A stretch of 64,000 nucleotides of DNA from Daphnia pulex. Its lineage: Eukaryota; Arthropoda; Branchiopoda; Diplostraca; Daphniidae. The position numbers were made by a program, and so were the translations under genes. Of the stretch, positions 6,089 through 56,464 are shown piece by piece; positions within the stretch are counted from its first letter, which is position 1, and each line of letters begins with the position of its first letter. Location: the NCBI RefSeq assembly GCF_021134715.1, contig NC_060027.1, forward strand, positions 2,914,001-2,978,000, read 5' to 3'. The notes beneath the pieces are model-generated. The model had not been told where the DNA came from. It searched no databases and was given only the letters and a program-made list of their open reading frames with translations.

Positions 6089-8384
6089 TGGCCACAAACA
6101 ATCTCAATTCAAACGATCAAAAGAAAAATCAGAAAAGAAATTTTTCTTTCCATCCGCCCACTGAAAACTAAAAGCCATTCATCCCATCCGTAGTAAAAGG
6201 AAGCCCAGACTTAAATGACACATCTCGCCGATATCCACCAACTTTGTAATTTAATTCTTTATTCAAAAAGAAAAAGCGTTTATAGCCCGTCGTCTTGTTA
6301 GCGCACAGAGAAAAAAAAAAGGTCCAACAGCCCCAGTCTTTTGTGTATATGTATACATAAAAGGTTATTCACAACAGCAGCAGCTCCCTGGTTCGGGTTT
6401 ATTTTTCAGACACTTTCAATAGTTTCTCCATGGCGTCTCTCCCGTTTTTTAACCCGCCGTTTGGGTTTTCGGTTACTTTTTTAACGAGTCACGACCGTTT
6501 TTTTTTTCTGAAGGGGGGAAACCGAACAATTTGATTTAAGAAGGAACTTTTGGTGTGGTGTGTGTGTGTGCAACAATCTATCGCAAAAGCAAACGCAGCT
6601 GAAAAAGAAGGATTTTGTTCGACCGATACACGGCGTGTGTGTGTTATCGGGAGCGTTACACTGCGCCACTCGACGCCATAAACCAAATACAATGGCCGGC
6701 AACATCAGGAGGATCGAGACTTTTTTTTCTTTTCTTTACACAGCAAATCACCTGTTGAATAATACATTGGCAGCGGCCAAATAGATTGTTCTGACGTGTT
6801 CTTTACCCGAGAGAGAGAGAGAGAATCAGCTGATATGTACATAACAAATCGCTGGCGTGCGTGAGCGTGAGGTTGTTCACCTCTCCCACTGCAAAAGTTC
6901 ACCGATAAACTAACCGATAACGAAATAGAATTCGCTTGAATTAAAAAAAAAAAAAAACATTTTCGTCCATGTCAAATGTCAAGAAATATTGGGAGAGCTG
7001 ATCAGCTGACAGCTGATGGGATAGGTCACTCCCGCTAGAGTACTTCCGGTCATTTTTCATTGCGTCAGCTCGACCATCTTTAAAAGTCTACTGCCAAACT
7101 CCAAACCAGCATCCGTCAGCAATCTCCCATCAACGACCGTGACTTTTGCGCTATCAATGCAAATTCCATTGGCGGAAGTGAGAAACTTGTGAAACTGAAT
7201 AAAAAACAAGAAAGAAATAGATAAGGGCAGCATCTATTAAAAGTGAAAATCCCTGATGCTGGCTGGCTGGCTGGCCTTATCGAGAAAAAAGAAACTTTCG
7301 ATTCGCTGATGAGGCCGGCACGTCTACGACAGATTCTCCTGCGATATTCCATGACGCTGTTTGAATCCACAATCAGCAAAAGAGAACACACACATGTTGG
7401 CTGCGAAAACATGATCATATCTTCTTTCTCTACGTATCCATTTCTATAAGAATGGACAATGGAGAGACTGGACGAGGTTGCAGCGGCCATTAAACCAAAG
7501 AAGAAGGTCCTTTTCAAGGTAAAAAAGAAATTAGACGAAAAGATACAACAACAACAACAACACGCCATAGCAGCACCGAATGGCGATTGGAGCTTGACAC
7601 GGAAATGTACGACGCCGTTTTCAAACCCAAAAGTGCTTTTCTCTATTTCTTTCTTTTGGCCGGCGCATAGACTTTCTTCCGTGTTTCTTCCGTTGCTATG
7701 CAAAAACAACAAGAGACGAGTGTGTTGTACTTATAGTCACCTAAGAGTGAAGAATTTTTGTCCATAAATAGCCAGTGACTTTTGCTGCTGCTGCTGCTCT
7801 CCTACACTTGATTCGTGTGCGTGTCGGGTTCACTCGAGTCTGCGGGGGAGGGGATGGAAGCGCACAAGATGGATGCGAATTCCGGATGACAAACGGAAAA
7901 ACCAAACCCAGCCAAATAACTCTCGCCGCCACCAACACCGTGAAACTACACAGGGAAATTGGGGAAATGTTTTTAAATCTTTTAGTGACTTTGCGACTGC
8001 GCTCCTTAAATACTCGCTCCCCCCTAAAGTTAAAAAAAAAAGTCCTGAAATGGGAGGGCCATCGATAATAAGATTAAGGATAAGGAATTAAGACACAACT
8101 GTGCGAATAATGGCGATGAAAAATTATTCGCTATGAAAGAATCTAAGGGGCAAATGAATTAAAAATTCCAAAATTATTTAGCTGTGAAACAGTCGCACTA
8201 TAATGTTTCATTTTGGTATATAGTGTCTGTTTTCTTTTTTCGCGTGTACTTGTCGACGAGCAGAGTCAGCCAAAAAATGCTGCTGCGGGGGATCTGATTA
8301 CGGACGTTGTGAGCAAATTTGTTTTACGGGCGACTTGCTACCACGGTGACACATTTCACACACTTTCTTCACGGTCAGTCACGC

Positions 8385-24290: not shown

Positions 24291-25711
24291 ATGCAATTGG
24301 AAGTTTATTATTTTATTGTGTTAGCTTTCACGGTAGTGACCGTACGCAGTATCACGCAAAATGGTAATAATTATTTTATCTCCTTTTTGACGACGTAATT
24401 AACAATTTTCTTTAAATGCAGATCTCATAATTTCCGATGGTGATCAACTCCAATATCTCATCAACGGAAGGGAATCCCGAACGCTGACGTTGGATTCCTA
24501 CAATGCGTCAAAGTTGTCCGCTCTCGCTTACGATCCTGCAGCAAAGAAATTATTTTTCTCCGACCTCCGCCATCTTCATGGACACATCTTTAGCGTCAAT
24601 CTTGACGAACAGTCCCCTCATCTTGTTAAAGATATTGTTGAAAGTAATACCTTTTATTATTTATAAGGAAACGCTTATTGCAATTATAGATTTTCTTTAA
24701 TTTGCTCAACAGAAAATTCTAACGAAACTGTCGAGAGTTTGACGTACGATCCTGTGGACAAAATGTTGTTTTGGGTCGACGGATTCAACCGATCCATCCG
24801 TCGAATCCGGATTGACCATGACAATGATCCCTCGGACGAAAAGACTGGCGTTGAGATAGTTCATTTTCTGAACGACGAAGATAAACCACAGGGAATAGTC
24901 TCCGATCCTTGCACAAGGTAAAAATTTAATCATACTAACATTTTCGCGGTTATTTATACTACCTTTTTCTATTTATAGAATGTTGTACTGGACAAACATT
25001 TACAATTCGCGCCCCGTGATTGAGCGTTCATTTATCAATGGAAGCCAACGCGAAATCCTGATTGAAACCGACTTATTACGGCCAATTTTGTTAGCGCTCG
25101 ACGTGATGGAGCAGAGACTGTACTGGGCCGAGAGTCTCCGCAATGGATACTTCCATATTATGCGAAGCTTCGTGAATGGATCGGAAAGGGAGACAATTTA
25201 TCGCGGACTGGGTCAAATAGTCATCAGTCTCACGGTACGACCGTTATAACCGTATAACCAGATTACATCATTCCTGCTTAATCATAATTCTCATTAAAAG
25301 GTGGGCGATGACTTCGTGTACTGGAGTGATTACAATCACAAGAAAATTTGGTGCCTGCGGAAGGACGGGTCATCTAGGAGTCCTTTATCTCTTGGAAGTT
25401 TTCGCAATCCTGCGTTGGGGCTGGTGGTGATTCGCCATCAACCTGTCAACTGCACTATGATGGCGGAGGAAGGTCAAGCCGAAAAATCGTTCGCTGAAAA
25501 ATCAGAAATAATTACAATTGCTGTTTGTTTGACCGGCACTTGTCTCATTTTAATGGGGATTGTGGCCGCCCTTATCTTTCGAGTGTGGAAATCAATGGGC
25601 TGTCAGCGATTGGCATTCGTTTCTAACAAGAACAATGATGATACTTTCCCATTTCATTATTTCGACGACTATAGTAATTCTTATGCAATGGTTGAGAAGG
25701 CAACGCCGTAG
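24291..25711 (+). CDS. Cueball-like YWTD membrane protein lacking EGF and tail exon (cue3)
   Basis: A signal peptide exon (MQLEVYYFIVLAFTVVTVRS) with ATG at 24291 is followed by propeller exons with LFFSDL, LFWVDG, LYWTN, LYWAES and VYWSDYNHKK. The final exon (from 25301) carries a short stalk, a membrane segment (around ITIAVCLTGTCLILMGIVAA) and a cytoplasmic end, AMVEKATP, with its stop at 25711. Like cue2 it has no EGF module and ends before the conserved tail exon of cue1, 4, 5 and 6. LLWTD has become LFWVD in the second blade. It is about 390 aa. It is the last gene before the 6.4-kb mobile element. Confidence 0.82.
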
Positions 25712-26491
25712 TGCATTGAAATTTCATCCCAAGTCAAATAAATGTTTCATATTGGCTGCTAAAATTAAATTATCTATGACATTGTTTTCAAATAAAGTTT
25801 TAAGATTAGTGTTGTACTTGTAACCTCATTCTCTCTAAGATTGCTAATCATCCTGTACCGGAAGAAATTCCCGTTCATTACTTAAAAATACAAATGAAGG
25901 AACAATCTGTAAGATACCGTACACTTGACAAATCCGACCAGTTTATTAGTCTGAGTTTATTAACTATTTGTAAAATGAGCTCATTCATCATTCACTTTTA
26001 CAAAGGGGAAAACCCACTGGAAAAAGAAACTGCCGCACCTGCACTATAAGTTTTAAAAGTCGGATATCACAGGTATAGAGTTGATAACAAAATCACGTGA
26101 ACTCAATTCTGGTAATTACCCATTTGAACAAATATTTTTGACTTTCCCACAGTTGAGTTGAAAGTTTCGTCAGTCTTTTAGCGGTAAAACCGCCGAAAGG
26201 TCTGCTGCACAGGTGTCGCAATATAAAGTGAAGTTGCATCACCTTCTTTTACCCAGCAGCATATAAATAGAGCAACGCCGCTTCTTAGAATGAACTTTGC
26301 CGAGCGACGTTAGACTTGGATAGTCGCACACAAAGTGCAGTCTATAAAAATCAAGCTTTCACTGACCGGCTTTCGCGAATTATTCGACCGTGAGATCAAT
26401 GAACGGGTTTTTTTGCGCAATCGGTCGTGACAGAAAAATTTTCTGCTACTGCAGTTCAATCGTGCGCAACGACAACACAAGTAACTACCTA
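25712..26491. promoter_or_regulatory. Candidate promoter region left of the mobile element
   Basis: TATAAATAG occurs at 26262-26270 in the context CAGCATATAAATAGAGC, and a second TATA-like TATAAAAA lies near 26343. No plus-strand coding exon follows before the mobile element begins at 26,492. The next coding start is cue4 at 33,016, just beyond the element. The simplest reading is that this was the cue4 promoter or 5' leader before insertion. This is an inference from position; no transcript start is shown. Confidence 0.35.
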
Positions 26492-26604
26492 CCCTAGCGG
26501 CGGTTGTTGGTTGAAAACTGGTAATTTACCGGTGAAAAAAACCGGTAAATGGAATTTTACCGGTATAATTTACCGATTTTTTCCGTAAAGTAACCCCTTA
26601 TGAG

Positions 26605-27535
26605 CGTAAACCCAACCGAGAAGTGCAGTTATAACACCGTGTTTTTACGCGCCTGAAAAATTTGCGATTTTGTAAAAAAGGCGTTTCTTTTACTCGAAAA
26701 AAACCCGTTTTTAAACTAGTAAAATAACCCCTACAGTTCGTAAACCCAACCGACTAGTATGGTTTTCTTTCGTAAGTTTTATTATCAATTACCGGTTACT
26801 TTCCCTCGAAATATACTTGATTTTTTAACGGGTAAATTAACCCCTTAAGAGCGTAAACCCAACCGACTAATACGGTTTTCTTTCCGTAAGTTTAATCTTC
26901 AATATTTAGTTTATTTCACTCGAAATATACCAGATTTTTCAACGGGTTAATTAACCCCTTAAGAGCGTAAACCCAACCGACTATTACGGTTTTCTTTCCG
27001 TAAGTTTAACCATCAATATTCAGTTTATTTTACTCGAAATATACCAGATTTTTCAACGGGTTAATTAACCCCTTAAGAGCGTAAACCCAACCGACTATTA
27101 CGGTTTTCTTTCCGTAAGTTTAACCATCAATATTCAGTTTATTTCACTCGAAATATACCAGATTTTTCAACGGGTTAATTAACCCCTTAAGAGCGTAAAC
27201 CCAACCGACTATTACGGTTTTCTTTCCGTAAGTTTAACCATCAATATTCAGTTTATTTTACTCGAAATATACCAGATTTTTCAACGGGTTAATTAACCCC
27301 TTAAGAGCGTAAACCCAACCGACTATTACGGTTTTCTTTCCGTAAGTTTAACCATCAATATTTGGTTATTTTAGCTCGAAAAAAACCGGATTTGTAAACT
27401 GGTAAAACAACCCCTATAGGTCGTAAACCCAACCGACTAATACGGTATTAATTCCGTAAGTCTACTACTACTCTAAATTGAAATTTGAACTAGAACTGGA
27501 CTAAAGAATTAAAGTCGAAAAGTGTTGGAGGTGAA
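26605..27535. repeat. 114-bp subterminal tandem repeat array (about 8 units)
   Basis: The phrase CGTAAACCCAACCGA recurs at 26605, 26739, 26852, 26966, 27080, 27194, 27308 and 27422, giving spacings of 134, 113 and then five of 114. The units between about 26,966 and 27,308 are nearly identical, while the outer ones are diverged. Each unit also holds ACGGTTTTCTTTCCGTAAG and AACGGGTTAATTAACCCC, the latter containing a perfect palindrome (GGGTTAATTAACCC). Arrays of this kind next to a TIR commonly serve as transposase binding sites; that role is inferred. Confidence 0.9.
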
Positions 27536-27551
27536 GGCTGTATTGAAACTA

Positions 27552-29779
27552 CTACTCCGTTGTGGGTTTGAAAGCGACAATACCTGTATAGATTTCCATG
27601 ACTTTATCATCAACGACGACATAAGTTTCCTCTGCGTCGGATGACTTGCGGCCCTTAACTTTCAGTACAGCTTTCACTTTGTTTTGATTCCGGTACGTCA
27701 TCGACATCTGCTTCCGCAGGTTCTTCAGGTAGCTGCCAACTGTGGTGCTTGAAGGATCCGTTGGTGGGGATGACTTATTCCAAATATTTGCGGCGGCTGA
27801 GTTTTGGAAAAAGAAACAGTAGTAAATATTAGAGAATTGAGCGTATTTTTTCTGAATTAAAAAATCCCAAGCAAAGCAAAAAGTCGGAAACTTCTCGACT
27901 AGAGGTGCGCACTAGTCGAGAAGTCGAACAAATTTTTGCTTTGCGGGTCTGTTGCAACTTCAAAATGGTCTGCATTGCCATGTTACACTTACCTACAATC
28001 ACAGCAAGCAAATTGTGTAATTGGCTAAGGCCAATTTCCTTCACCGTTTTCCACTCAGCATATCCTCGCCATTGGATGATGTCACACAGCTCATCAGAGA
28101 CGAACACTCGGAATATCAGTTTTATAAATTTGTTGACAAGTGTGGCTGACTTGTACTTCATGGACAAGTGGCAAACCTGACAACGAAAGAAAAAGTTACG
28201 TTTGCAACCGGAAAATAGTGATCAAAATTGCATACCGCATTTACTGCTAAGGTCGTGCAGCCAAGTACGGTGTTAAGCGCTTCAATTTCTTGCAGTGATT
28301 TGCACGGGAGTTTTGGAAAAGCTTTTTCAAAGCCTTCTGTGTGTGCAGCAACGTTTTTTTTGGCATACTCGACTACGTTGCAGTGTTGGACTCGATCAAG
28401 CCGACGGTGTAATTTTGCAAACTGGTTGTCGACATGTTGTTTAAATTGGGCCAGTTGTTGATGCACGGCACGTCCAATAACTTCTTCCAGCGTTTGCAGA
28501 TTTACGGAACTTGTCTGATCGCCTGAATGCGAAAAAGAATAATTAATCAACAATTCAAGGTTTAATTCGTCAATTGATTCGGTTTAATTATACTTTTTCA
28601 TACCTTGATTCATGATGTTGCATAACGCTAGCATTTCACCATCGCAAATAACCACGTCTGCTAGTGGGTCAGCTTCTTTCACACCTGCAGCGGCAGCTCC
28701 CTTCTCAGAACCCGAATCGCTATCACTATCACCATCGCGGTTGTTCACACTTGATGAGTCGCCATCATCCGATTCTCCTGAAGTTGACTCTTCAAGCTGC
28801 GGCATAGACTGATTACTATCTTCATCGTCGGCGTGATCGGAATGATCGTATGTTGCCGGTAGAGGGTTAGCTTTGACGAATTTGGGAGAAATTGGTTGCG
28901 GAGCAACTTTCTCGGTGCTGTCAGCATCACCTGATAACGAAGTATTCGCCTTGGCGGCAGAAGCTGGCTTCGAAGCAGAGTCGAGTTTTTTTTTGTTGGT
29001 TTTTTGTCTTTTTGGCGTTGGTGACGCGGTTGGTTGCGGTGCTATAAGAAAGATATCTCGTTATTGACTGATGTTATGCAGAAAGAAAAACTAATTTGGA
29101 GCAATATATTGAAAGCGTGGGATGAAAGAAAACGATATACCTGGCAAGGCTCGTTTTTGTTGCAGATTACGTGTTCGCAAGCTTCTTATTTCCCCTTCTT
29201 TGGCTCGGCCAAGATTTGCATCTGAGTCGAACCACTGTGAAGCATCCGTCTCACCTCGCTGAAGTGCTGTGGCTTTTTTGGAAGCTTTAACCAGTCCCAC
29301 TATGCAATGCGAATAAAAATAAAGTTAGTTAATTTTATAAAACCTGTGGATCCAACAAATACACAACAGGGTAACTTACACCAAGTTTCTTCTGTTTTGT
29401 TGAAAACGTGAGCAACATCGTATTCCATCCATGATGTCTTTGGCCAAATATGTTTCGAAAACTGTTTCTCATTCCACACTGCAGGGGTTTTGATTTGGGA
29501 GTTTTCTGGTGGAGGATAGAGCAAACATTTCAAATCAGTTGACAGCCATGTTTTGGGTATAACGCTGAAAACTTCGACTTCGCCATCTTCTGTTGTTTGG
29601 CAAGTTTTCACAACACAAAAAATTTTGGTCTCTCCAAGTTGAACTTTTTTGCTGGGTATCTCATCCAGTTTTTCATACGTGGAACTGGGACACCAATGTT
29701 CTCGGATTCTTCCAACAGCAAAAACATCCAGTTCATCGGGAACTTTCTTTAGGTTTTTCTTCGATTTCTGAGACGTCAT
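27552..29779 (-). CDS. DUF4806-type protein inside the transposon, intact, 6 exons
   Basis: Exons in transcript order: 29779-29380, 29299-29141, 29041-28604, 28522-28236, 28176-27993, 27796-27552. All have GT-AG junctions and they sum to 1713 nt (570 aa) without a break. The N-terminal region (about 1-135) has Trp-rich blocks (KTWLSTDLKCLLYPP, WPKTSWMEYDV). The middle (about 190-330) is Ser/Asp-rich and acidic, with a basic patch (PTPKRQKTNKKK) that could be a nuclear signal. The C-terminal part reads FPKLPCKSLQEIEALN, then VNKFIKLIFRVFVSDEL, then IQWRGYAEWKTVKEIGL. That order (short helix, K..I..LFS/VSDEL, WKG-like turn) is what I recall for DUF4806, a domain of unknown function expanded in invertebrates. 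No catalytic triad is seen. The role is unknown; DNA or chromatin binding is a guess. Confidence 0.8.
27871..27944. repeat. 74-bp imperfect palindrome in an intron of the DUF4806 gene
   Basis: The left arm starts GCAAAGCAAAAAGTCGG and ends CTTCTCGACTAG. The right arm starts CTAGTCGAGAAG and ends TTTTTGCTTTGC. The inner 12 bp are perfectly complementary around a 9-base loop, and the outer 12 match nearly perfectly. It may be a small fold-back element or a residual tiny MITE nested in the transposon. Confidence 0.75.
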
Positions 29780-30344
29780 GTTCAATTAAAAGTTCCGTTT
29801 GAACGGTAAAGTCAAACCAAAAGCTCACTAAGTAACGCACACTTCAATCGTTCACTTTCAAACCGTTCACGTTCACTTCAAATCGTCAGCACTTTTGCAC
29901 GAAATTCGTCTGCAAATGGCCGCCAGCCAAAACGTGTTTATTGTAGATCGATATATCGTTTCTGCAGCATATCGATATACTTCACCGATGTCATGTATGT
30001 ATGCATGAAAAAGCTTAAAAAGAAAAAAATATAAAGGGGAATTTCAGTCTCGTAATCATAATGAAAATCCATTTATTATAAAAACTACGCCAATAATAAT
30101 TTGGTCAAACTGTAACAGATAATAAGACAAAGAATCGCATTCATATCCATACTCTTTCACTCTCAATCAACTTTAAAACCAATATTTAACATACTGTGCG
30201 TAGCTAACCAAAAATAAAGTAAACATAATCTTTGCAAGTAAAGTAAAGTATTGTAAGTAGAATAATAATAAAGAATTTTGCGTTCCCCTGATTTTAATAT
30301 CTAAAAAAAAAATAGCAGCTAAAACAATCACCAACTCGAAGTAA
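29780..30344. other. Non-coding interior of the transposon
   Basis: AT-rich sequence between the DUF4806 start codon and the importin-like exons. A near-repeat CGATATATCG / CGATATAC lies at 29948-29978. The part next to 29,779 should hold the DUF4806 promoter, but no TATA box is convincing. The part next to 30,345 is the far side of the importin-like 3' end. Confidence 0.4.
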
Positions 30345-30946
30345 CGGTGGCCTTCAGTCAGCGGATTTCCTTCGTGGCCCAGTTAGACAGATACTTTGTC
30401 TTTCCCGTTTTAGATCGTCGTCCAATAGTCAGCATGTCGGTGATTGGTTCAGTGTCAACGAAAGGCAGCAATTGATGTCCAAACACAGAGCAAGGATCCC
30501 TGAGAGAAAATTATATTATATACAAGTACGGGCTAAATCAAAAATGATCCTGTACCCAATAAGACCAGCGACGGCAGAAATGGTTCCATCTCATTTCTCC
30601 CGTCTCTCGCAATCGTAGTTATGAAGTTTATCATGTGTGGAACATGGTGAACATGTGGATGTATTAGCTGGACATCATTTCCAATAGTTTCTTTGTCTTC
30701 CCCTTTGAGACCCTGGACAATTCCAGTGTATGCTTCAAGGCAGCATTCACGCAGTTCATTTAAATAATCCATGATGTCAATATCATTCTGCAAATAAACA
30801 AACATTAAAACCAAACCCTTTGAAATTAAACAAAATTGTAGTTACTCGGTTGACCTGGGCTTGAGATGCTTGGTGTAGCATGCCAATAACTAATTCAAGA
30901 TACTTTTTGAATTCTGGGCTGATTGCCAAAGCCATTTCCTGAACAC
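30345..30946 (-). pseudogene. Captured importin-beta1 3' fragment (three exons with introns), decayed
   Basis: Three minus-strand exons match the C-terminus of the nuclear import receptor importin-beta1 in order and spacing. The first (about 30946-30848) reads MALAISPEFKKYLELVIG then QASQAQVN, compared with DIALAIGGEFKKYLEVVLN and QASQAQVD in vertebrates. The second (about 30794-30541) reads [19 protein letters not shown] then IVQGLKG. The third (about 30499-30345) reads DPCSVFGHQLLPFVDTEPI, then GRRSKTGKTKYLSNWATKEI. Introns between them are kept, so the piece came from genomic DNA, not mRNA. The second exon loses the frame before AGLIG, which appears one base out of phase, so the fragment cannot encode the normal C-terminus. 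The rest of the importin gene is absent. Confidence 0.85.
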
Positions 30947-31300
30947 CAGCAGCACAGCACAATTTGGCTTGTCAATTTGATCTGTTGAACTGACTTCGGC
31001 AACAGAAATTGTCTCTTCTGCTGTGGCTTCGCCTGATTGAAGTACAGAAATGTCAACTTCGGCATTGTTGTTTGATAATTCAACAGCTACATAACACAAA
31101 TAAATGTATTACTTTCAGTAAACAAATTAAAGTAGAAAAAACAGTACCTGATTCAATATTATTTGATTTGCTACTGCCATGTACTTTATTCCAATGGCGT
31201 CTGAATGACAGAAACTTATTACACTGCTGACCACACCCGGCAAACTTGCATGTTACGAATAATTTGGTGCTGAACGAATGATTCCAGTTATTGCGCGACT
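30947..31300 (-). pseudogene. C2H2 zinc-finger gene fragment fused to the importin fragment
   Basis: A minus-strand exon ending at a GTACTG donor (31148) encodes CKFAGCGQQCNKFLSFRRHW followed by NKVH. This fits the C2H2 pattern C-x4-C-x12-H-x4-H. A second exon starting at 31086 joins it in frame and is acidic and Ser/Thr-rich (AEVDISVLQSGEATAEE, then VAEVSSTDQIDK). The frame then enters the importin-derived sequence in the wrong phase and stops. The result looks like the 5' part of one gene joined to the 3' part of another, with no intact product. The parent of the zinc-finger part is not recognised, and its first exon was not found. Confidence 0.6.
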
Positions 31301-31604
31301 AAAAATTAATGGGGTTCTTCATATTTATGGAAACAGAGCAAATCAGACACATAACAGAAGATGTTTACATCTTTTCTTGGCTTGGTTAATGCTTCTTATT
31401 TGCATTGACGGTTGCTATGCACTGACAATGGGCAAGGTTGAGATAAACAGCAGTAGAAAACGCAACAGCGAACGCAATATAGTTCAAACTCTACAGACGA
31501 AAGAAAAATTCCGGGATTTGTAGTACTAGGCCTAAAGTGTTTTCTCTTATTATAGTTTCGATTAGCTTGCTCTTGCACTTCAACTTATTACATTCCATTC
31601 AATC

Positions 31605-31811
31605 ATGAAACAATTCAATGGGAAACCTATCTATGAAATTGATACTGATTTCATTATTTACCGTGATGAAGCTGGAACTGGTTTGAAAAAAGAGACTATA
31701 CCATTGGAGGCCATAAGTTTCGAAGATTATATTGACAACGGTATGACAAGGTTTTTGGTACATTTTGGGATCATGGATCATTGGGATACATTGGGATCAT
31801 GGGATCATTAG
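31605..31811 (+). other. Short open frame in the transposon, unrecognised
   Basis: A 68-codon frame begins MKQFNGKPIYEIDTDFIIY and ends in a small GGATCATTGG-type repeat (about 31768-31808). The first 50 residues have protein-like composition (KKETIPLEAISFEDYIDNG), so it may be a captured exon from an unknown gene. No family is recognised and no splice partner is obvious. Confidence 0.25.
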
Positions 31812-32830
31812 AAATAACCGTTGGTTAACAGCATCAATATGGTTAAAAAACCAGTTACATAACCCTTTGCAAGTTGGTATTTAACAGTTTAAGTTGGTGT
31901 ATATAACCGTTGATAAATTTAATGGAAATGGGTAAAAAACTAGTGGCAATAACAGTTGACAAATGCGGTTTTTTTCGCTAGTAAATTAAGAGTTGTATGA
32001 ACCCCAAAACTACCCTTTGCAAGTTGGTAAAAAAACCTTTGGCAATCCCAGATGAAAACGGATGAAAATAACCTTTTCAAACGTTGGTTTTATATGGGCG
32101 CGGTTTACTTAAGAAAAACTAGTGTCTTTAACCTAAAATTTACCCTATACTTTCAAATTTAATTTGGTGTATATAACCGTTGGCTAACTGAATGAAAACG
32201 GGTAAAAAATTAGTTGCATAACTCGTTTAAAGTTAGACATAGTTTACCGGTAAATTACGAATTACTTGAACCCCCAAAAAATAAATTTGCGTCGGTAGAA
32301 ACAACCATTGGCAAACCGGCAAGCAATGGAGAAAAACACATTTTTAAATTTTAGTTTCAAACTAGTCTAAATTACCGAGAAATTAAGGGTAAATTAGAAC
32401 TTTACCCGACAACATTTGAGTCGGTAGAAATAACCGTTGGCAGAACCATGGGCAAACCGGATGGCAACGGATAAAAAAAAAGTTTTTAAGCGACAGTATT
32501 ATGAAGGATTACATTTACCGGGAAATTTTTAGTTATTTAAACCTTAAATTTACTGGTCTAAAATACGGTTTCAGAACCCGGTGAAAACGGGTTGAATAGC
32601 GCTTTATATTTGTTAGTATTTCTAACCCGTCTACAACCGTTTATTAAGAGGTGATTTTTACACTTCTCTCAAAATAAAGTTTTGGGGTTAGAAATACTGG
32701 GAAAAAACTGAGTTTTAACTGGAAATATTGTGTCTGACTTGTCTTTGAAAAATTTTCAATAACTTTTGGGTAAAGGTTGTTTTTCCCTTCAAATTACCGA
32801 ATTTTGGGCCGTAAAAAAAGGGTAATCACA
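31812..32830. repeat. Diverged subterminal repeats, right arm of the transposon
   Basis: Phrases such as ATAACCGTTGG / AACCATTGGCAAACCGG / AAAACGGGTAAAA recur irregularly (near 31815, 31907, 32175, 32302 and 32429) on a spacing of roughly 90-130 bases. They share the ACCGGTAAAT vocabulary of the far left end but are much more degraded than the left 114-bp array. They are probably old copies of similar subterminal units in a different phase. Confidence 0.55.
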
Positions 32831-33015
32831 ACCATACCGACTTTCAACCGAGAACCACCGCTAGGGTAGTAGACGGGCTTTTGTTCTCGAACGATTTAGA
32901 GCACTAAAAACAGTGACACGAAACGATTAAACAATCGTCATCATCTCTTATTGATCAGTACAGCAACGTTTCCCGGAGCTGAATTAGTTGGATTTAGTTT
33001 CTTGGCTCGCAAAGA

Positions 33016-34986
33016 ATGAAGTTTGGACGTCTACTCATTTTCGTGGCCTTAAAGCTAGCGGCCGTTGTTAGTGTTAAACAAGATGGTAAGTGGCTTCCGA
33101 TTAAATCTAAATAAATTCAATTCAAATAATTACCACAAATATCTTGAGGTGTTATCATAATTTTGTATTATTTACAGATCTGATTATCGCTGTCGGCGAT
33201 AAGCTAGAGTTTCTCAAAGATGGAAGCACATACCAAACACTGGCGCTGGATTCTTACAATGCGTCAAAATTTTCGGCCCTCGCCTACGATGCCACGACAC
33301 AGAAACTCTTTTTCTCCGACATCCGACATCGTCATGGTCACATATTCAGTGTCAGCCTCGACAGTGAATCTCGCCGTAATGTTGAAGACATCGTAGAAAG
33401 TAATTCCATAATTATACGAATCTATTATACCATTCTATGGACGATTAGTAGTGTTGTGTTTAATGTTGAAGTTGTTGATTCATAGAAAAGAGTAACGAAA
33501 CTGTTGAGAGCCTGACGTATGATCCAGTGGATAATGTTTTGCTGTGGACTGATGGATTAAACAAATCCATCCGTCGTATCCAGATTGACCATGACCGAGT
33601 CCACTCTGAAGGAAAGGCCGGTGTTGAGGTAGTCCACTTTTTGGAATACGATGCTAAACCACGTGGGTTGGTTTCTGATCCCTGCACGAGGTAAGAAATC
33701 ATTTTCATTTCAATAATACTGATAGCTAGCAGCATAGTAGTGAGTTCGCAAAGGCATCTGTAGTGCATCTGACATTTTTATCTCGTTACTTTAGAATGCT
33801 GTACTGGACAAATATTCATAATTCTCGTCCAACTATTGAACGTTCGTTTCTCAACGGAAGTCACCGTGAAATTGTTGTTAAAACCGACTTGTTACTGCCG
33901 AATTCTCTAGATCTAGACGTGGTGGAACAGAGACTATACTGGGCAGAGAGTTTGCCTAACGGATATTTCCATATTGAAAGAAGTTTCGTGAACGGAACGG
34001 GAAGACACGAAATCTATCGGGGTACCGGGCAATTTGTCGTCAACCTCGCGGTAGGCTAAACTACCGATATCACATTTTTCTCTTATAGTCGATTAACCAT
34101 TCCTTTAATTATTAAGGTGGGAGTTGACTATGTTTACTGGAGCGATTACGATCATAAGAAACTCTGGTTTCTTAGAAAAGACGGATCATCAAAGCGACCC
34201 TTAAGTCTGGGAACATTTCGTGACCCTGTCATGAGTGTAGTGCTATTTCGTCGTCAACCGATAGATTGCTGTCTGGTTTCCTCATCAGAAACTTGTCAGC
34301 CAACGAAAGAAGTTCTCGTTAAGAGCCAGCCTGTGGTAATTCTGGAATCGACGTCATCCAGACACGACGATGTTGATATTTGTACAGGTTTTTGCTATCA
34401 CAACGGTGATTGTACTATTCTCTTGAATTCCGTTTTGCGCTGCAGGTAATGATCGTAATCATCCGAACAGGTTTAACAAATTTTTACAAAATTGTAGGCT
34501 CACATATCTCGTTTGTTAGTTGCCCAGCTGGATTCAGTGGCGATCGGTGTGAATTACTCGATGGGCAATCAGATGCGTGGTCATATGATAACCCAGAAGT
34601 AGAAGAAATGGACAGAGAAAATGAGACAATGACTCTTGATCAGATGTCATCGTCATTTGAAACGATAGCTAAAACATGCATACCCATCACTTGCTTCGTT
34701 TTAATAGCAATTGTTGCCATCGTCAAACTCCGATTATTCACTACCATTTTCAAGTCTCTGCGAAGAGATAACGACGACAATGCTGCGGTCGTACAAAATT
34801 TGGAAAATTGCTACAAAATGTGTGAAAGGGTAATGCATTCGCTTTCTGGAGGTTTTAAGCAATTAAATTGTTATGCGTTTTAATTTTTAGCCGTTTCCGC
34901 AACTTCAAGCCGTAAGCGCTCCGGTGCCGGACAATAGTTGGAAACAAAGTGGTGACCGTGCTACCTTAATCGAGAACGAATTTTGA
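33016..34986 (+). CDS. Cueball-like YWTD/EGF membrane protein (cue4)
   Basis: ATG at 33016 opens a signal peptide (MKFGRLLIFVALKLAAVVS). Propeller exons follow with LFFSDI, LLWTDG, LYWTN, LYWAES and VYWSDYDHKK, then an EGF split over an exon junction as in cue1 (FCYHNGDC, then CPAGFSGDRCE), a membrane segment (around CIPITCFVLIAIVAIV), and a conserved donor after the CER codons. A final exon encodes PFPQLQAVSAPVPDNSWKQ and ends ATLIENEF with the stop ending at 34986. With cue1 it is the only full-module copy. It starts only 150 bases beyond the right end of the 6.4-kb transposon, so its upstream region was interrupted by the insertion. Length is about 495 aa. No break is seen. Confidence 0.84.
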
Positions 34987-37639: not shown

Positions 37640-40122
37640 TTTGCCTATGAATAATTTGCAAGAGCCTAAGCAAATCTTTATATCTTCCATTCTTCCAGTT
37701 AGATTTTTAAGATTGTATCACTTGACTATGGAATATGGAATATTCATGATTTCATTAAACTTCCTTAACAAACTTTACACCTTCTTTAACTTTAAATATG
37801 TAAATAACATGAAATTTATTTAGAAAATATGTCGAGAATTTTTTAGGCAAATTACAAATAATATAGTGTGGAATGGATAGGTGAATTGGACAAGTCGTTG
37901 CTTTCAGATCAATGACATCTTAGGACCCAAGATTCTTCAGGTGATCAAAGTTAACTTTCCCAATTACCGCCAGATGACGAATGGCAGACTCTAGCCAACG
38001 AGGAGTGATATCCTTCGTGCTTAAGGTGAAAGATTCGCTCTTTCAATAACCGGATTGATTTAACTGTAATATCCCATCGCTAGAGTTGGGTGGTAGTTTT
38101 AGCTACAAGTTTCATGGCCATGGTTACGTGAAACGTAGTGCTGGTGTCAGATAGGTCAATAACCCGTTTGGCATTGAAAAGAATGTTCAATTTACGCTAG
38201 AAATATCTGCTTCGTTCGTCAATGAATTGCAAATTTCTTTTTCTACAGCTGAGCGTACGAAAATTCGTAACTGATGTGTGTGGTGTGTCGGAAATATCCA
38301 CTTTTGGAATTGGCCATGGGCATGGAGAGATGGTTTCCTGTCTCCATATTAAATTTCCCATAAGGGGTTGTCCGCTTTTTTAACGATCAGAGGATTTTCC
38401 AGTGTGCCGCTAGATGGCGTTTGATTGTTTTGAAAATGACGAAATGTGTGAACGAGTTATGTCATCTTCTTTTCTGGTTTGTGTTTGAATTTTGCTGTTT
38501 TACTGCCAAAAATCAACCAATTATATACATGTAAGCTTATTGTGATTATTCTAACTACACAGTAGCAAGTTTTCTATCAGTCACTGTGTACTCGACTAAT
38601 TGGTACATTTGGAATTGTAGAAAATGTACCTGCCGTCTGGTCATCAGATTAATTTGGACCCCATTTTAAGAAAAAATTGCTCAACACTTCTGTAACTCAC
38701 ACCCCCAGCTTCATCTGCATCATCCTCTCACATCTTAGTCAAAACTTTGAGCTGTTTTTCCCAAAAGTTGTGGCGTTGGATGTACAATTACAGGTAAGCA
38801 TAACCTTCCGATTTTAATACCTCATCATCCATCAATGCAATAAAATAATCACAAAATTAATACCCTTTTGTTTAACAGGTTCATTCTTGCCTGAAAGATG
38901 TTTACACCTTTGAACACTTTTTGTGGAGTTGTTGCATCATGAAATTGTATTGCATTGCTGCCATTCTCTTCATCTCCCACTTCACAGCTACAAGAAATGA
39001 GTAATAGGAAGCCTACAACAGATTGAGGTAAAGGTGTGCTTCTATGTTCTCTCTTTATCATGTAATTCACTTTGGATTCCACCTTGGCGGTGGGTATTTA
39101 TGGGCCTCACTGCAATGTTAAAACCTTTTTCTGTTCTTTGATTTCGGAATACATAGGTTGTGTGTATGCCATTGGATCCATTGGATTTTTCGAGTCGGCC
39201 GCCGATGTCAATCTACAACGCAGTTTCTTTATTGGAATTGTGTGGTCCTGGCAGAGATCCTTGATGCTGGGCTTTGTCCATTACAGAAGAGTGACTTCTA
39301 CCAACTTTCTGCTCCATCCTTATCTTCACTACCCACACTCATCTAGCTTCTCTGCTTATTATGCTGCTAATAGTGCTAAACAATTTGTCATACTTCACTG
39401 ACGAGTTAGACCAGTCGCTTCCGTCCGCTTGTCACTCTCCATGGAATTATGCCCAGGTACCCGACAATCGACTTATTTTCTTAGATTATCTACTAGTATT
39501 TAGTAGTCGTAATAATCTACTTGCGTTAAACTCTCTGTCTGTGTAATAATTCCAAAATAATTCCAAAATCAGGCCCTTCTTGCGCGCTTAAGTGTTACTT
39601 GAAACCCGAAAGTGAACTTTGTTCCATGTACAGTTCTGAGTATTGCTAGTTAGGATTCAAGCAAATAAAAGTGCTGTTAAATTTTTTGAGCCAAAAAACC
39701 TGATCAATGTTAGCTTTTTTCAAGTTTCATTGTCATTTCACTTAATAAGAATTGTTTTGTCTTTATTCAGGTAATGAAGAGGAGATGTTGAGAAGATGGA
39801 CACCAGAAGGTCGCCGGTATCTGGAAAAAATCAGCGCGGATCGTCAGGGGAAAAGCTTTGACCACTTTGAGCAGCTTTTTCTTTATCTTCATTATTCGTG
39901 GACACCAACTGACAACGTAAGTTGAAATGACGATAGAATATTTTCGTTCGTAGTAATCTGACTGAAAGATGATTTTATTATCTAATTTAGATGTCTCCGG
40001 TTTCCCATCATGCGATCAGAGACACGATCGCTGTGGGTCCCACTACAAGAACTTCATGGCATATTTACGAGCGGTTCAATGCGGATCATCATTTATTGTT
40101 GGTATATGTTAGTGTTAGTTAA
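37640..40122. other. Spacer with unrecognised exon-like pieces
   Basis: The stretch starts with the DPEP-B 3' UTR. On the plus strand, 39770-39917 looks like an exon: it has a CAG acceptor, reads EEEMLRRWTPEGRRYLEKI then FDHFEQLFLYLHYSW, and ends at a GTAAGT donor. A following segment from 39991 is in frame (MSPVSHHAIRDTIAVGP) and stops near the MITE. Earlier exon-like pieces sit at about 38720-38792 (donor GTAAGC) and 38880-38990 (VHSCLKDVYTFEHFLW). The protein-like composition suggests a real but unidentified gene or an old pseudogene. I cannot name a family. Confidence 0.3.
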
Positions 40123-40449
40123 CCCGTTGGCTGCCACGCCTTTGTTCTCCCCTAGCTCCTTAGCACGGGCCGCGCTGTTCGGTCTCGTGGTTTACATGCC
40201 GCGGGATGGGACAGTCGCACCAGCCCCAGATTCGCCGAAAGGCCCTGTTAGGCAATGCACCATAGGGACTTCCCCCTTGTCGATACGGTGATGGATTCTA
40301 GAGGTTGTGCATTCCATCTTCTCCTGTCACCGTGTCAGCCCGGACTTGTCAGCAATGGCAAGTCCCTCTTTGGTCATGGATCCTTCTGACGTGGCGCGTA
40401 GAGTAGTAGAAAAACAACCTACGGGTTGTATGGCGTGGCAGCCAACGGG
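40123..40449. mobile_element. piggyBac-type MITE with TTAA target duplication
   Basis: Perfect 18-bp terminal inverted repeats (CCCGTTGGCTGCCACGCC at the left, its exact complement at the right) bound a 327-bp GC-richer segment. TTAA lies immediately outside each end (40119-40122 and 40450-40453). TTAA duplications and TIRs starting with CCC are characteristic of piggyBac-family elements. It encodes no transposase and is therefore non-autonomous. The perfect TIRs and target duplication suggest a fairly recent insertion. Confidence 0.88.
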
Positions 40450-43116
40450 TTAACTACTTGTATGTATGTATGTATGTTTGTTTGGTATGTCAGTAAAAAA
40501 GTGGAGGAATTGTGGGTGGAGGCGGGACAATAAATGCAATTCCTTTCAGATGTAATTTACACTTTTATTTATTTTTCATCTAATAATCATTAAGAATAAG
40601 ATAAATCTGTATCATTCAGACCCATTTTTTACATAACTGGTAGGATCTATGATGTAACAAATTTACTTTGAGGAGTGACTGTTTAAGCGTTTACCTATCC
40701 GCCGAACTATTTGTTAAACATCTCGGGTCGATCTAGCCTTTAGAAACACTACAATTGTTGCTAAATCGGCTACATACATAAACGTTTATGTCTTTATTTA
40801 GTTAAACGACAGTGTGAGATCTATTAAAATTGTGCCTAACAAGACCAATAGCTGTTTAGCTTGCTTCCATACGCGAATATACTGAAATACACAAGAGCCA
40901 AAGATCCTTTGTTGGTCTGGTGGGTAATAGTTACAGGTAGTAAAGTTCTTCTGGAAAAGACGAGAAGAAACTGCTGCAGCTGAAGGCCATTCGGTCATTG
41001 CAAAAGTATTAGAATCAGCAGACATCATAACTCGCATTATTTAGAAAATAAGACTTTTGGGCCTGAATGAGGCGTACTCTCCATGAAAGGAAGGAGATTC
41101 CACCCAAAAGAAAAACGACCACAAATAAAAACAATCGAACCAAAATAAATATTAAATATTTCATTTCCATCTTGAGGATGGATCAGCATGGCTGCATCAT
41201 CAGATATCTCATTTGAAGCAGCAGGTATCCTGTAAAAGAAAAAGTGATCTCACAAACAGAATTCAACATTTTTATTAGACACACAAGATTGTTTGAAATT
41301 CTAAATGATACCAAGGAGCTAAAAGTCAGCAAAAACAAAAGAATTCAAAATTGATTGTTACAGAATCTGATTGGTTACGGTTCCTTACTAATTCAAACTT
41401 TCCAATTTCAACACAACAAGTTATTGTGAATTTCTATTTTGAATAGTGCAGTTATTCAGAAGACTCTTTTCTCTAAGAAAGATTTACTTGTTAATTTTAG
41501 TGCAAAACAAAAAACTGAAGAATCTGCATATTTTCAAACCCTTGCAAGCCAAATATACCACCCAAGGAAAACTTTTCATGTTCAAACTTTGCCATTCAGT
41601 TGGAAAGACACAGCCTAAAATTGTGAGTACAAGTTTATTTCTAAGCAGCCTTACCTATATTATCCACCATTCAAATCAGTCATGTTTGGTCTTGATTTTT
41701 CAGCCATGAAAATGTGAATGGAAACACCTGAATGAAACAAATACAAATGAAAATTTAGCATTCAATTTTTTTGTTTTAACCAATGAACATTTGTAAGTAT
41801 GGTTTGGACTCTTTGCGAGAGTAACATTTTTTGTTACAAAACAAATTCAAGAACATTTGAGTTCTAATGGAATGTATGGTTAGTAAGACCCAAAAATTAT
41901 TGAAAACCCGTTTAATATTTCCACACCACTTTTACCACAACAATTTTCAAACAAGAAATCTGTAGTCCTCATTTCCCTAACGCCAACACCACAAAAATCT
42001 TAAGTGAGGAATCAAGAGCGTACATAGTTGAATACTTGAATGTAAATTTAGCATATGGCAAAATTTAAAAATATGGAACATAATAAGTGGCAGTAAGAGA
42101 ATGAAGACGGACTATGCAAGTCTCTAAAAACAGCTAATATTTACTACAACCAAAAGAAGGTAAGAACAATCGAAGTAAAGTTAAATGTATGTAAACTACA
42201 TACCCATGGTATTACCCACTAATTACTTACAACCATTTACGACCATTTATACCATGATGAATGACTACACCCCACAGCACGCGACAAGCCCAATTCCTTC
42301 GAAAAATCCCTTTCCCTCGAAACTCGAAAGAACGAGCCGAAAATCTGTAAGCTAGCCTCTAAGTATTTGGTCTTCAGGTAAAGCTTTCACAAGAACTACC
42401 ACTTCCATGATAAAAGTTTGGCTTTGACAATAAACTGGTTTTCAGGCAAACAAATGAAGCTGAAAAATGTTCTACAAACCAGAACGGCACTCCGGGGATC
42501 TGTCAGCTGCTGTCGAATGTCGATTTTCGTCGAATGCCAGCAGCCATCTTGAAAGTTACGCGCAAGGCGCAACATTGCCATTTTCAGTTTTGCAATTAAA
42601 AACGTCCTCATCCCTCTGCAATTGTAATGACTCTGATGGAAATTTTTTTTAATTATAAAAAAGGTATCATTTCTTATTTTTTGCGAGTAGCATCTGATGT
42701 TGACCTAAATTTGGCCGTTCAAAGTATTAACACACAATTCGGTGTGCGTCACAGCAGTCTTGAACCGCAATTAATGTTGCGACACGATTTAGCGGATCCC
42801 AGTCATCCGAAATCTGAAAAGAAATCAGATACTTCAGCAGATGTCACAATATAAAACGATTACTTACACGCTGCGCACTATCAAGTGCGTAGTGTGAATC
42901 GCGTGCATTAAATTAGCCTACGCCGTAACACACAGACGTTACATCTCTCAAAAGATGACTTTCGTAGCTTTCATGTGAAATCGATCAGTGAACAGAGCGA
43001 TCAGCGCTTTACAAGTCGTGCTAGAGTTTCAACAAGAAGGAAGAACAAACCAAAGTGAAAGCAGAAAATATCTTTTGCAGGCCCATACTTTATTCATTTA
43101 ATTTAATTTTTAAAAT
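40450..43116. other. Spacer with small unresolved open frames
   Basis: A minus-strand piece (41172-41030) reads MEMKYLIFILVRLFLFVVV and continues to a stop, giving a possible small single-pass membrane protein of about 50 aa. A minus-strand frame near 42570 starts MAMLRLARNFQDGCWHS, Arg-rich like a mitochondrial targeting sequence, and is followed by a possible GTTTGT donor. Plus-strand frames at 42467-42854 have no domain. None forms a convincing complete gene. The right end must hold the cue5 promoter. No other repeat or element was recognised. Confidence 0.3.
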
Positions 43117-55208: not shown

Positions 55209-56464
55209 TTAGTAACAAGGTTCGACCGTAGGACAAGAGCAAGGCTCAGTAGATGTAGTCGTTGATGGAGTAGTTTGTGTTGTTGGGTCGGTTGTAGTCG
55301 TTGATGTAGTCGTTGATGTAGTCGTCGATGGAGTAGTTTGTGTTGTTGGGTCGGTTGGTGGGTCGGTTGGTGGGTCAGTCGGTGGGTCAGTCGGTGGGTC
55401 GGTTGGTGGGTCGATTGTAGTCGTTGGTATAGTCGTCGATGGAGTAGTTTGTGTTGTTGGGTTGGTTGTTGGGTCAGTCGGTGGGTCGGTTGGTGAGTCA
55501 GTTGGTGGGTCGATTGTAGTCGCTGGTGTAGTCGTCGATGGAGTAGTTTGTGTTGTTGGGTCGGTTGTTGGGTCCGTCATTGTATCAGTTGTATAGGCAT
55601 TCAGGGGTTCAGTAGTTGGTTCAGTCGTTGGTTCAGTCAAAAATTTACCCGCTGATTTAGTACTAGTTGGCGATTTAGAAGTTGTCGTCCAAAAAGGCGA
55701 TGTGACTGTCAACTGTTTAGACGAAAATCGTAAATCGTCGATGGCAACAGCATCTTCTTTTTCTGTGCCGCAATAAGCGTAAAACACCAACTGCACACAG
55801 TGGTGAAACAACAATTAAAAATGGGCTTTATATCAATACTTAACGTAACAAGACTTACCGAAACATTAGAAGCTGGTTCACCTTCAAGAAGAACGGATTG
55901 AGATCGCCAAATCCCATTGGTAATGCTCGAGTAATTGTACAAACTGCTGAGCAGCCTTTCGTTTCCATTGTTGGACATGTATAACTACAGAAATATTTTT
56001 AAAAATTATTAATTCCCATTGGAAACAACATGGGACATCTTTCTCTGATGAATAATTACCTCGAGATTGGTGAATTGGGGCCATTTGGAACGTATCCAGA
56101 ACGAGAAAGAGAAATCATTTTGGCATGCTGGAAGTCTAAAGGTCTGGCTCCGAAGAATTGCTACTCCAAACGAAGAAAAAGACTGCCCGCGATGGACTCT
56201 TAGATAATTTCTACCGGTGAGCGGTTGAGGCGCTACATTCTCAAACTCCCAGGGTGATGTCTGGTTTTCGATTTGCCATCGAACGCCAATCTGGGACTCA
56301 TCAACCCACGGGAACACACCATTAATTTCGAAATCATTGTTTAACCGTTCCTTAGCCACTGCTGGATCGCTCTGGGGACACGGCGGACACGACGCAGCCG
56401 AGGATCCGCCAATCAGCAACTGTAGAAGCCTCACTGAAAATAAGAAGAAAATGAGTTTCAGCAT
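55209..56464 (-). CDS. Secreted MAM-like protein with Thr/Pro-rich mucin tail
   Basis: Exons 56464-56060, 55984-55859 and 55790-55209 join in frame to 370 aa. ATG at 56464 opens a signal peptide (MLKLIFFLFSVRLLQLLIGG). Next comes a domain of about 190 residues with a MAM-like plan: an N-terminal DFEI..VFPWVDE block, NYLRVHRGQ, FRLPACQNDFSFSFWIRS, and a closing YCGTEKEDAVAIDDLRFS, which matches the usual MAM end (AIDDI/L.F). The last 170 residues are low-complexity repeats of PTDPPTDPTTQTTPSTTT, a likely O-glycosylated stalk, ending EPCSCPTVEPCY. MAM domains mediate adhesion. It has no membrane segment, so it is secreted. The domain is divergent, so a related beta-sandwich family is possible. 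Confidence 0.78.
55245..55640. repeat. Coding minisatellite in the mucin tail
   Basis: On the plus strand, TCGGTTGGTGGG and GTAGTCGTCGATGGAGTAG motifs recur in multiples of 12 and about 90 bases. They encode PTDP and TTQTTPSTTT on the minus strand. Larger blocks (about 55,320-55,440, 55,435-55,535 and 55,530-55,570) are near copies of each other. Such arrays usually vary in length between individuals. Confidence 0.8.

Follow-up and report, generated by a model that had tools for sequence, protein, structure and literature searches.

A probable non-autonomous DNA transposon in Daphnia pulex that carries an intact six-exon gene and a decayed importin-beta-1 fragment

In a 64,000-nucleotide window of the Daphnia pulex genome (contig NC_060027.1, positions 2,914,001 to 2,978,000; all coordinates below are those of the window), we found a 6.4-kb unit at 26492-32866 that is best read, with a probability of about two in three, as one inserted copy of a non-autonomous cut-and-paste DNA transposon with terminal inverted repeats (TIRs), carrying an intact gene for a 570-aa protein and a decayed capture of importin-beta-1. 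The limits given by the initial annotation proved correct. The left end starts with CCCTAGCGG, the reverse complement of which closes the right end; 24 of the first 30 bases are identical, TA adjoins both TIRs, and 12 consecutive bases are identical once three flanking bases are included. As a control, 40 first-order Markov simulations of the window were searched for inverted pairs with an 11-base exact seed, at least 26 of 32 bases identical and a separation of 300-12,000 bp, and none (0/40) contained a pair of this quality. The matching ends with TA flanks that had been annotated are confirmed. The same search of the real window returned seven rows that correspond to four places: the element ends, a pair in the inner arms, the ends of a separate short element around 40.1 kb, and positions 8327 and 12477. 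The element is preceded by C-TA and followed by TA-G (CCTA on the left and TAGT on the right), and we infer an empty target site of C-TA-G. The flanking 9-mers, AACTACCTA and TAGTAGACG, differ beyond the TA, so a 9-bp target duplication is absent. Pack-TIRs, which are elements with TIRs but no transposase that enclose host-type DNA, are defined by TIRs plus a target duplication; both features are present here, the duplication being just 2 bp long.

Between the TIRs and the cargo lie two arms that are near-symmetrical in length (974 bp on the left and 1058 bp on the right). The annotated subterminal array in the left arm was recovered by Tandem Repeats Finder with a period of 114 bp, 6.9 copies and 90% matches; its three inner units are mutually identical at 113-114 of 114 positions, and the outer units are more diverged. 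The right arm is also repetitive, with diverged copies of its own that lie, for example, 128/129, 150 and 270 bp apart. The inner edges of the two arms match in inverse orientation over about 39 bp, and the best local score between the arms was 44 in the inverted orientation compared to 29 in the direct orientation. As controls for the inverted score, 270 windows of real sequence gave a maximum of 29, and 300 Markov sequences gave a mean of 26 and a maximum of 41. In addition, the GC skew flips sign between the arms, from -0.133 to -0.267 across windows of the left arm to +0.190, +0.155, +0.011, +0.099 and +0.061 along the right arm. Because the inner edges match inversely and the skew changes sign, the arms are probably composite and Foldback-like, and the right arm seems to correspond to the left one in inverted and diverged form. 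The 9-mers common to both arms (38 inverted and 29 direct, with maxima of 30 and 29 in 179 control windows) lend weak support to this inverse relation. The motif ACCGGTAA or its complement has six matches in the 64 kb, of which the left arm contains four and the right arm two, the latter forming one palindrome; GGGGTTA/TAACCCC has eight matches, seven in the left arm and one in the right. Strict palindromes of at least 10 bases number four in the left arm, all of them one palindrome of the array, and one in the right arm (0.95 per kb); since the core has 1.84 and the rest of the window 1.49 per kb, the arms are not enriched in palindromes beyond the array itself.

A Pfam scan of the spliced 570-aa gene and of all 28 stop-to-stop open reading frames (ORFs) in the core that reach 60 aa or more gave TPR_IMB1 as the sole family above its cut-off. 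The annotated lack of a transposase is therefore upheld within this set, which a degenerate or shorter piece could escape. Since no transposase was found within the element, we propose that a transposase made elsewhere in the genome would act in trans on the ends and the subterminal repeats, inserting the unit at C-TA-G. Searches for copies outside the window were made in prokaryotic or viral collections, so that misses say little: they are to be expected for a eukaryotic element and do not show that it is single-copy. There, the end pattern had three matches in viral contigs, a number that comes without a chance rate; the pattern of the 114-bp array had no match in viral contigs or genome contigs; and the 570-aa protein had no match in viral contigs and five pattern matches in genome contigs, with no confirmed relative. 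A literature search did not find CCCTAGCGG described as a terminal inverted repeat.

The complete gene claimed by the initial annotation stands in full. Its six minus-strand exons are joined across introns of 80, 99, 81, 59 and 196 nt, all five with GT-AG borders, and the frame is open to a stop codon that ends at 27552. In terms of codon usage, frame 0 scored 0.135 compared to a control 95th percentile of 0.059, one reverse frame scored 0.18, and the GC content at third codon positions was 0.42, below the 0.58 of neighbouring ORFs; because of the reverse frame and the lower third-position GC, we draw nothing from the codon usage of this gene. The full-length protein matched three Pfam families, all below their cut-offs, the best being FSIP1 (16.4 bits versus a cut-off of 27) over the acidic/serine-rich middle. 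For an 89-residue C-terminal fragment, DUF4806 (PF16064) was the sole family, with an E value of 0.018 and an alignment to profile positions 7-82 of 90; for a longer C-terminal fragment, DUF4806 was found with an E value of 0.033, alongside two other weak families. As a negative control, reversed or shuffled C-terminal sequences were scanned, and DUF4806 was absent in 9/9. We singled out DUF4806 because its alignment is nearly full-length and because we had expected it ahead of the profile scan, not because of the score alone. We consider that the C-terminus of the 570-aa protein weakly resembles the DUF4806 (BEN-type) domain, which is a DNA-binding domain. In intron 5 of the gene, there is a strong palindrome at 27866-27947 whose single-strand DNA fold has an energy of -26.5 kcal/mol (z score of -5.7, with 0/200 shuffles as stable) and which is possibly a nested hairpin insertion.

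Several results weigh against the DUF4806 assignment. Its score of 15.8 bits fails the 25-bit Pfam gathering cut-off, and the family is not listed in the Pfam scan of the full-length 570-aa protein. FSIP1 and Mt_ATP-synt_D (16.3 bits, E value of 0.0091, in an ORF spanning exon 4) score equally in the same protein and are taken as chance matches, and two of the nine controls matched unrelated families, the better match having 13.7 bits over 28 residues (E value of 0.043). Single-sequence structure models were too poor for a fold search, with a mean predicted local distance difference test (pLDDT) score of 37.4 for exon 1 and 56.6 for exon 5. With the C-terminal fragment, a search of PDB sequences returned no match and a search of NCBIfam returned one unrelated match (E value of 0.099).

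Upstream of the 570-aa gene and on the same strand lies a chimera, in which two exons, the first with a C2H2-like zinc finger, can be joined in frame to importin-beta-1 exons through a 56-nt GT-AG intron. The best PDB match of the zinc-finger exon was GLI (E value of 0.042). The importin part matched residues 719-751 (E value of 3e-06), 751-806 (6e-15) and 812-870 (3e-16) of an 876-residue importin-beta-1 reference. Because this fragment retains two introns of 58 and 56 nt, its capture as genomic DNA is well supported; it would have been copied in by template switching or gap repair and would then have decayed. Its frame changes in the middle exon between residues 806 and 812, and a TGA stands directly after residue 870, six residues before the end of the vertebrate protein. 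The open chimeric frame comprises 212 residues (Pfam TPR_IMB1, 1.4e-21), and no start codon was found for it. The acceptor site at 30938 lies at or close to the start of the importin homology and may be the capture breakpoint. Taken together, these results retain the zinc-finger/importin-beta chimera of the initial annotation, with the correction that its importin part is frameshifted. Likewise, the claim that all cargo lies on one strand holds for the recognised cargo, which is on the minus strand, and not for a short plus-strand ORF from 31605, a possible third captured fragment that is also inside the element. As for captured gene fragments in general, the claim stands for the intron-bearing importin-beta DNA; the zinc finger is no more than a putative capture, and the 570-aa gene may instead be the element's own.

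The origin of this intact gene is the point on which the strongest alternative turns. In a Pack-type capture throughout, the 570-aa gene, the zinc finger and the importin fragment would all be host copies, and the intact gene would be the newest acquisition; such a history competes with our reading over the origin of the gene and not over the existence of the element. In favour of capture, the importin part is clearly intron-containing DNA of host type, the introns of the 570-aa gene are short (59-196 nt) with GT-AG borders, and Pack-TIRs have been reported in animals, one of them with a TA duplication. Against it, a complete six-exon gene would be unusual cargo. In the other view, the 570-aa gene would be the element's DNA-binding accessory gene and would act, by analogy with known systems, on the repeats of the arms. 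Its frame would have stayed open while the neighbouring importin piece decayed, and a younger capture would equally explain the intact frame. We give the two origins about even odds, each being tentative and falling somewhat short of an even chance by itself; the odds had leaned towards the accessory gene and were brought level because unrelated sub-threshold families score equally in the 570-aa protein.

A more specific proposal is that this sole intact gene would encode a DUF4806/BEN-type protein that recognises tandem and palindromic repeats in its own arms, such as GGGTTAATTAACCC and TTTACCGGTAAA, and would thereby serve in an accessory or anti-silencing role, comparable in animals to that of the plant protein VANC. 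We consider this unlikely, and its probability was lowered because of the equal-scoring Mt_ATP-synt_D match. In an excerpted comparison of two Hydra genomes, DUF4806 is among the domains that are more numerous, in a table where many transposase domains are listed as well. In a literature search pairing the BEN domain with transposons, none of the papers listed mentions the BEN domain. If the arm-binding proposal is true, the DUF4806 genes that are multicopy in animals such as Hydra may travel on elements of this kind. If the intact gene is the element's own, this would suggest a function for a DUF family and a sequence-specific accessory system in animal transposons. A complete six-exon gene beside a decayed capture in one TIR element would allow selection on the two cargoes to be compared.

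For the transposon as a whole, the following points count against our reading. TA would be shared by the two flanks by chance about once in 16 cases. The Markov maximum of 41 is close to the arm score of 44, and the relation between the arms therefore rests mainly on the inner match of about 39 bp, its mirror position and the skew; the skew is itself weak in the outer right arm (+0.011 to +0.099). In the 64-kb window, the element has a single copy, with neither an empty site nor a parental gene seen, so that its mobility is deduced from one copy with a 2-bp duplication. The flanks (25401-26491 and 32867-33966) and a 300+300-bp junction were compared with the window, and the matches beyond self were the part that belongs to the downstream gene, at five paralogous places (66-71% identity), and a single piece of 35 bp; none of these is a paralogous counterpart of the insertion point. 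In an alternative origin, independent of transposition, an older short TIR element was filled by gap repair with unrelated DNA and the 6.4-kb unit never moved, as Tan et al. 2021 (PMC8277862) conclude for most single-copy animal Pack-TIRs in the excerpted text of their survey. However, the arms flank the cargo near-symmetrically, and with two or more unrelated cargoes the filling would have to have been repeated or compound; we regard this origin as quite unlikely. Least probable of all is that there is no mobile element, only an ordinary host locus where a satellite array, a lineage-specific gene and a pseudogene occur together with an end pair that is inverted by chance: it would suit the one copy and the missing empty site among the window's paralogous genes, but the end pair is unmatched in the simulations, the outer limits of both arms fall at the TIRs and TA, and the arms appear inversely related.

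Table 1. Features of the candidate element (window coordinates)
Feature	Position	Strand	Basis
Left TA, putative 2-bp target site duplication, C before it	26490..26491	.	sequence
Left terminal inverted repeat, CCCTAGCGGCGGTTGTTGGTTGAAA...	26492..26523	+	24/30 identical to right end
Left composite arm: TIR, then ACCGGTAA-type motifs, then 114-bp tandem array (26683-27461)	26492..27465	.	
Left-arm inner edge, inverse match to 31950-31989	27366..27404	+	local alignment
Intact 570-aa gene, six exons, stop included	27552..29779	-	spliced reading frame
Exons of the 570-aa gene	29779-29380, 29299-29141, 29041-28604, 28522-28236, 28176-27993, 27796-27552	-	
DUF4806-like region (weak resemblance), residues 404-483, end of exon 4 and exon 5 with the intron between	28012..28310	-	PF16064, 15.8 bits
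Importin-beta-1 C-terminal fragment: exons 30938-30846, 30787-30556, 30499-30361	30361..30938	-	protein and Pfam matches
Zinc-finger part: exons 31298-31148 (C2H2-like C-x4-C-x12-H-x4-H) and 31086-30995	30995..31298	-	C2H2 pattern by eye
Short ORF from ATG, MKQFNGKPIYEIDTDF...	31605..31811	+	no family above cut-off
Right composite arm: diverged repeats, apparent inverse counterpart of left arm	31809..32866	.	
Right terminal inverted repeat	32835..32866	-	inverted-repeat match to left end
Right TA, putative duplication, G after it	32867..32868	.	sequence

About 150 bp separate the right end of the element from the ATG (33016) of a downstream gene, for which the window has five paralogous places, and TATA-like strings are found on the far side of the element at 26222, 26260 and 26343; the element may separate a promoter from this gene. 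At 40116-40456 lies a separate element of about 340 bp with TTAA at either edge, whose inverted ends share 25 identical bases, made up of TTAACCCGTTGGCTGCCACGCC and three further bases outside it; it resembles a piggyBac-type miniature inverted-repeat transposable element. The inverted 32-bp pair at 8327 and 12477 is identical at 26 of 32 positions, and its members lie about 4.1 kb apart. At 55279-55638, tandem repeats of 12, 99 and 123 bp are found in a minus-strand ORF with a Thr-rich repetitive stretch.

Two superfamilies were rejected for the 6.4-kb element. The target duplication of piggyBac is TTAA, and this assignment was rejected on the target site, the flanks here being CCTA and TAGT; CC..GG ends, a piggyBac trait, are present in the element, and excerpted descriptions give piggyBac CC..GG termini with a 4-bp duplication. 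PHIS: ISL2EU was rejected on the TA duplication and the CCC ends, compared to an AT duplication in A-AT-T and ends that are usually GG in the excerpted description of that group. A TA duplication is typical of Tc1/mariner (ITm) elements, although 2 bp are too little for a superfamily assignment, in keeping with the initial annotation. Some Tc1/mariner elements are also reported to have long inverted repeats in subterminal position (PMC10379824, PMC10045372, both in excerpt). Unlike Tc1/mariner, no DDE/D transposase was found in the spliced gene or the 28/28 core ORFs.

Three known systems combine features of this element. By analogy, it resembles VANDAL elements with VANC, in which a non-transposase gene accompanies noncoding tandem repeats and, as excerpted, VANC proteins bind or act on the tandem repeats in VANDAL noncoding regions (PMC10398659); VANDAL are plant elements, and the likeness comes from anatomy, repeat binding by the 570-aa protein being presumed only. 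The Foldback-like Tm1 of Meloidogyne (PMC3169594) is close in anatomy, with composite inverted termini around a gene, the relation of the right arm here being diverged, and one Tm1 member contains the gene Cg-1, which the excerpted text does not describe as its transposase; unlike the element here with TA only, Tm1 has 9-bp target duplications and family members that encode a transposase. The animal Pack-TIRs are described in excerpts of one survey (PMC8277862), which counts 370 in 100 animal reference genomes, none of them in insects, with 323 belonging to hAT or TcMariner, and which describes them as fragmented. One family, Ssk-FB4, is found in fly populations and is called by the authors the first potentially functional coding case; a literature search did not find Pack-TIR together with crustacean or Daphnia. 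Unlike the Pack-TIRs of that survey, the element here carries a complete multi-exon gene and composite arms of 1 kb. Like them, it is a TIR element without transposase that encloses host-type DNA, here the intron-bearing importin-beta-1 exons, and a TcMariner case among them has a TA duplication, as found here. With regard to the importin part, no known kind of element comes closer than the animal Pack-TIRs.

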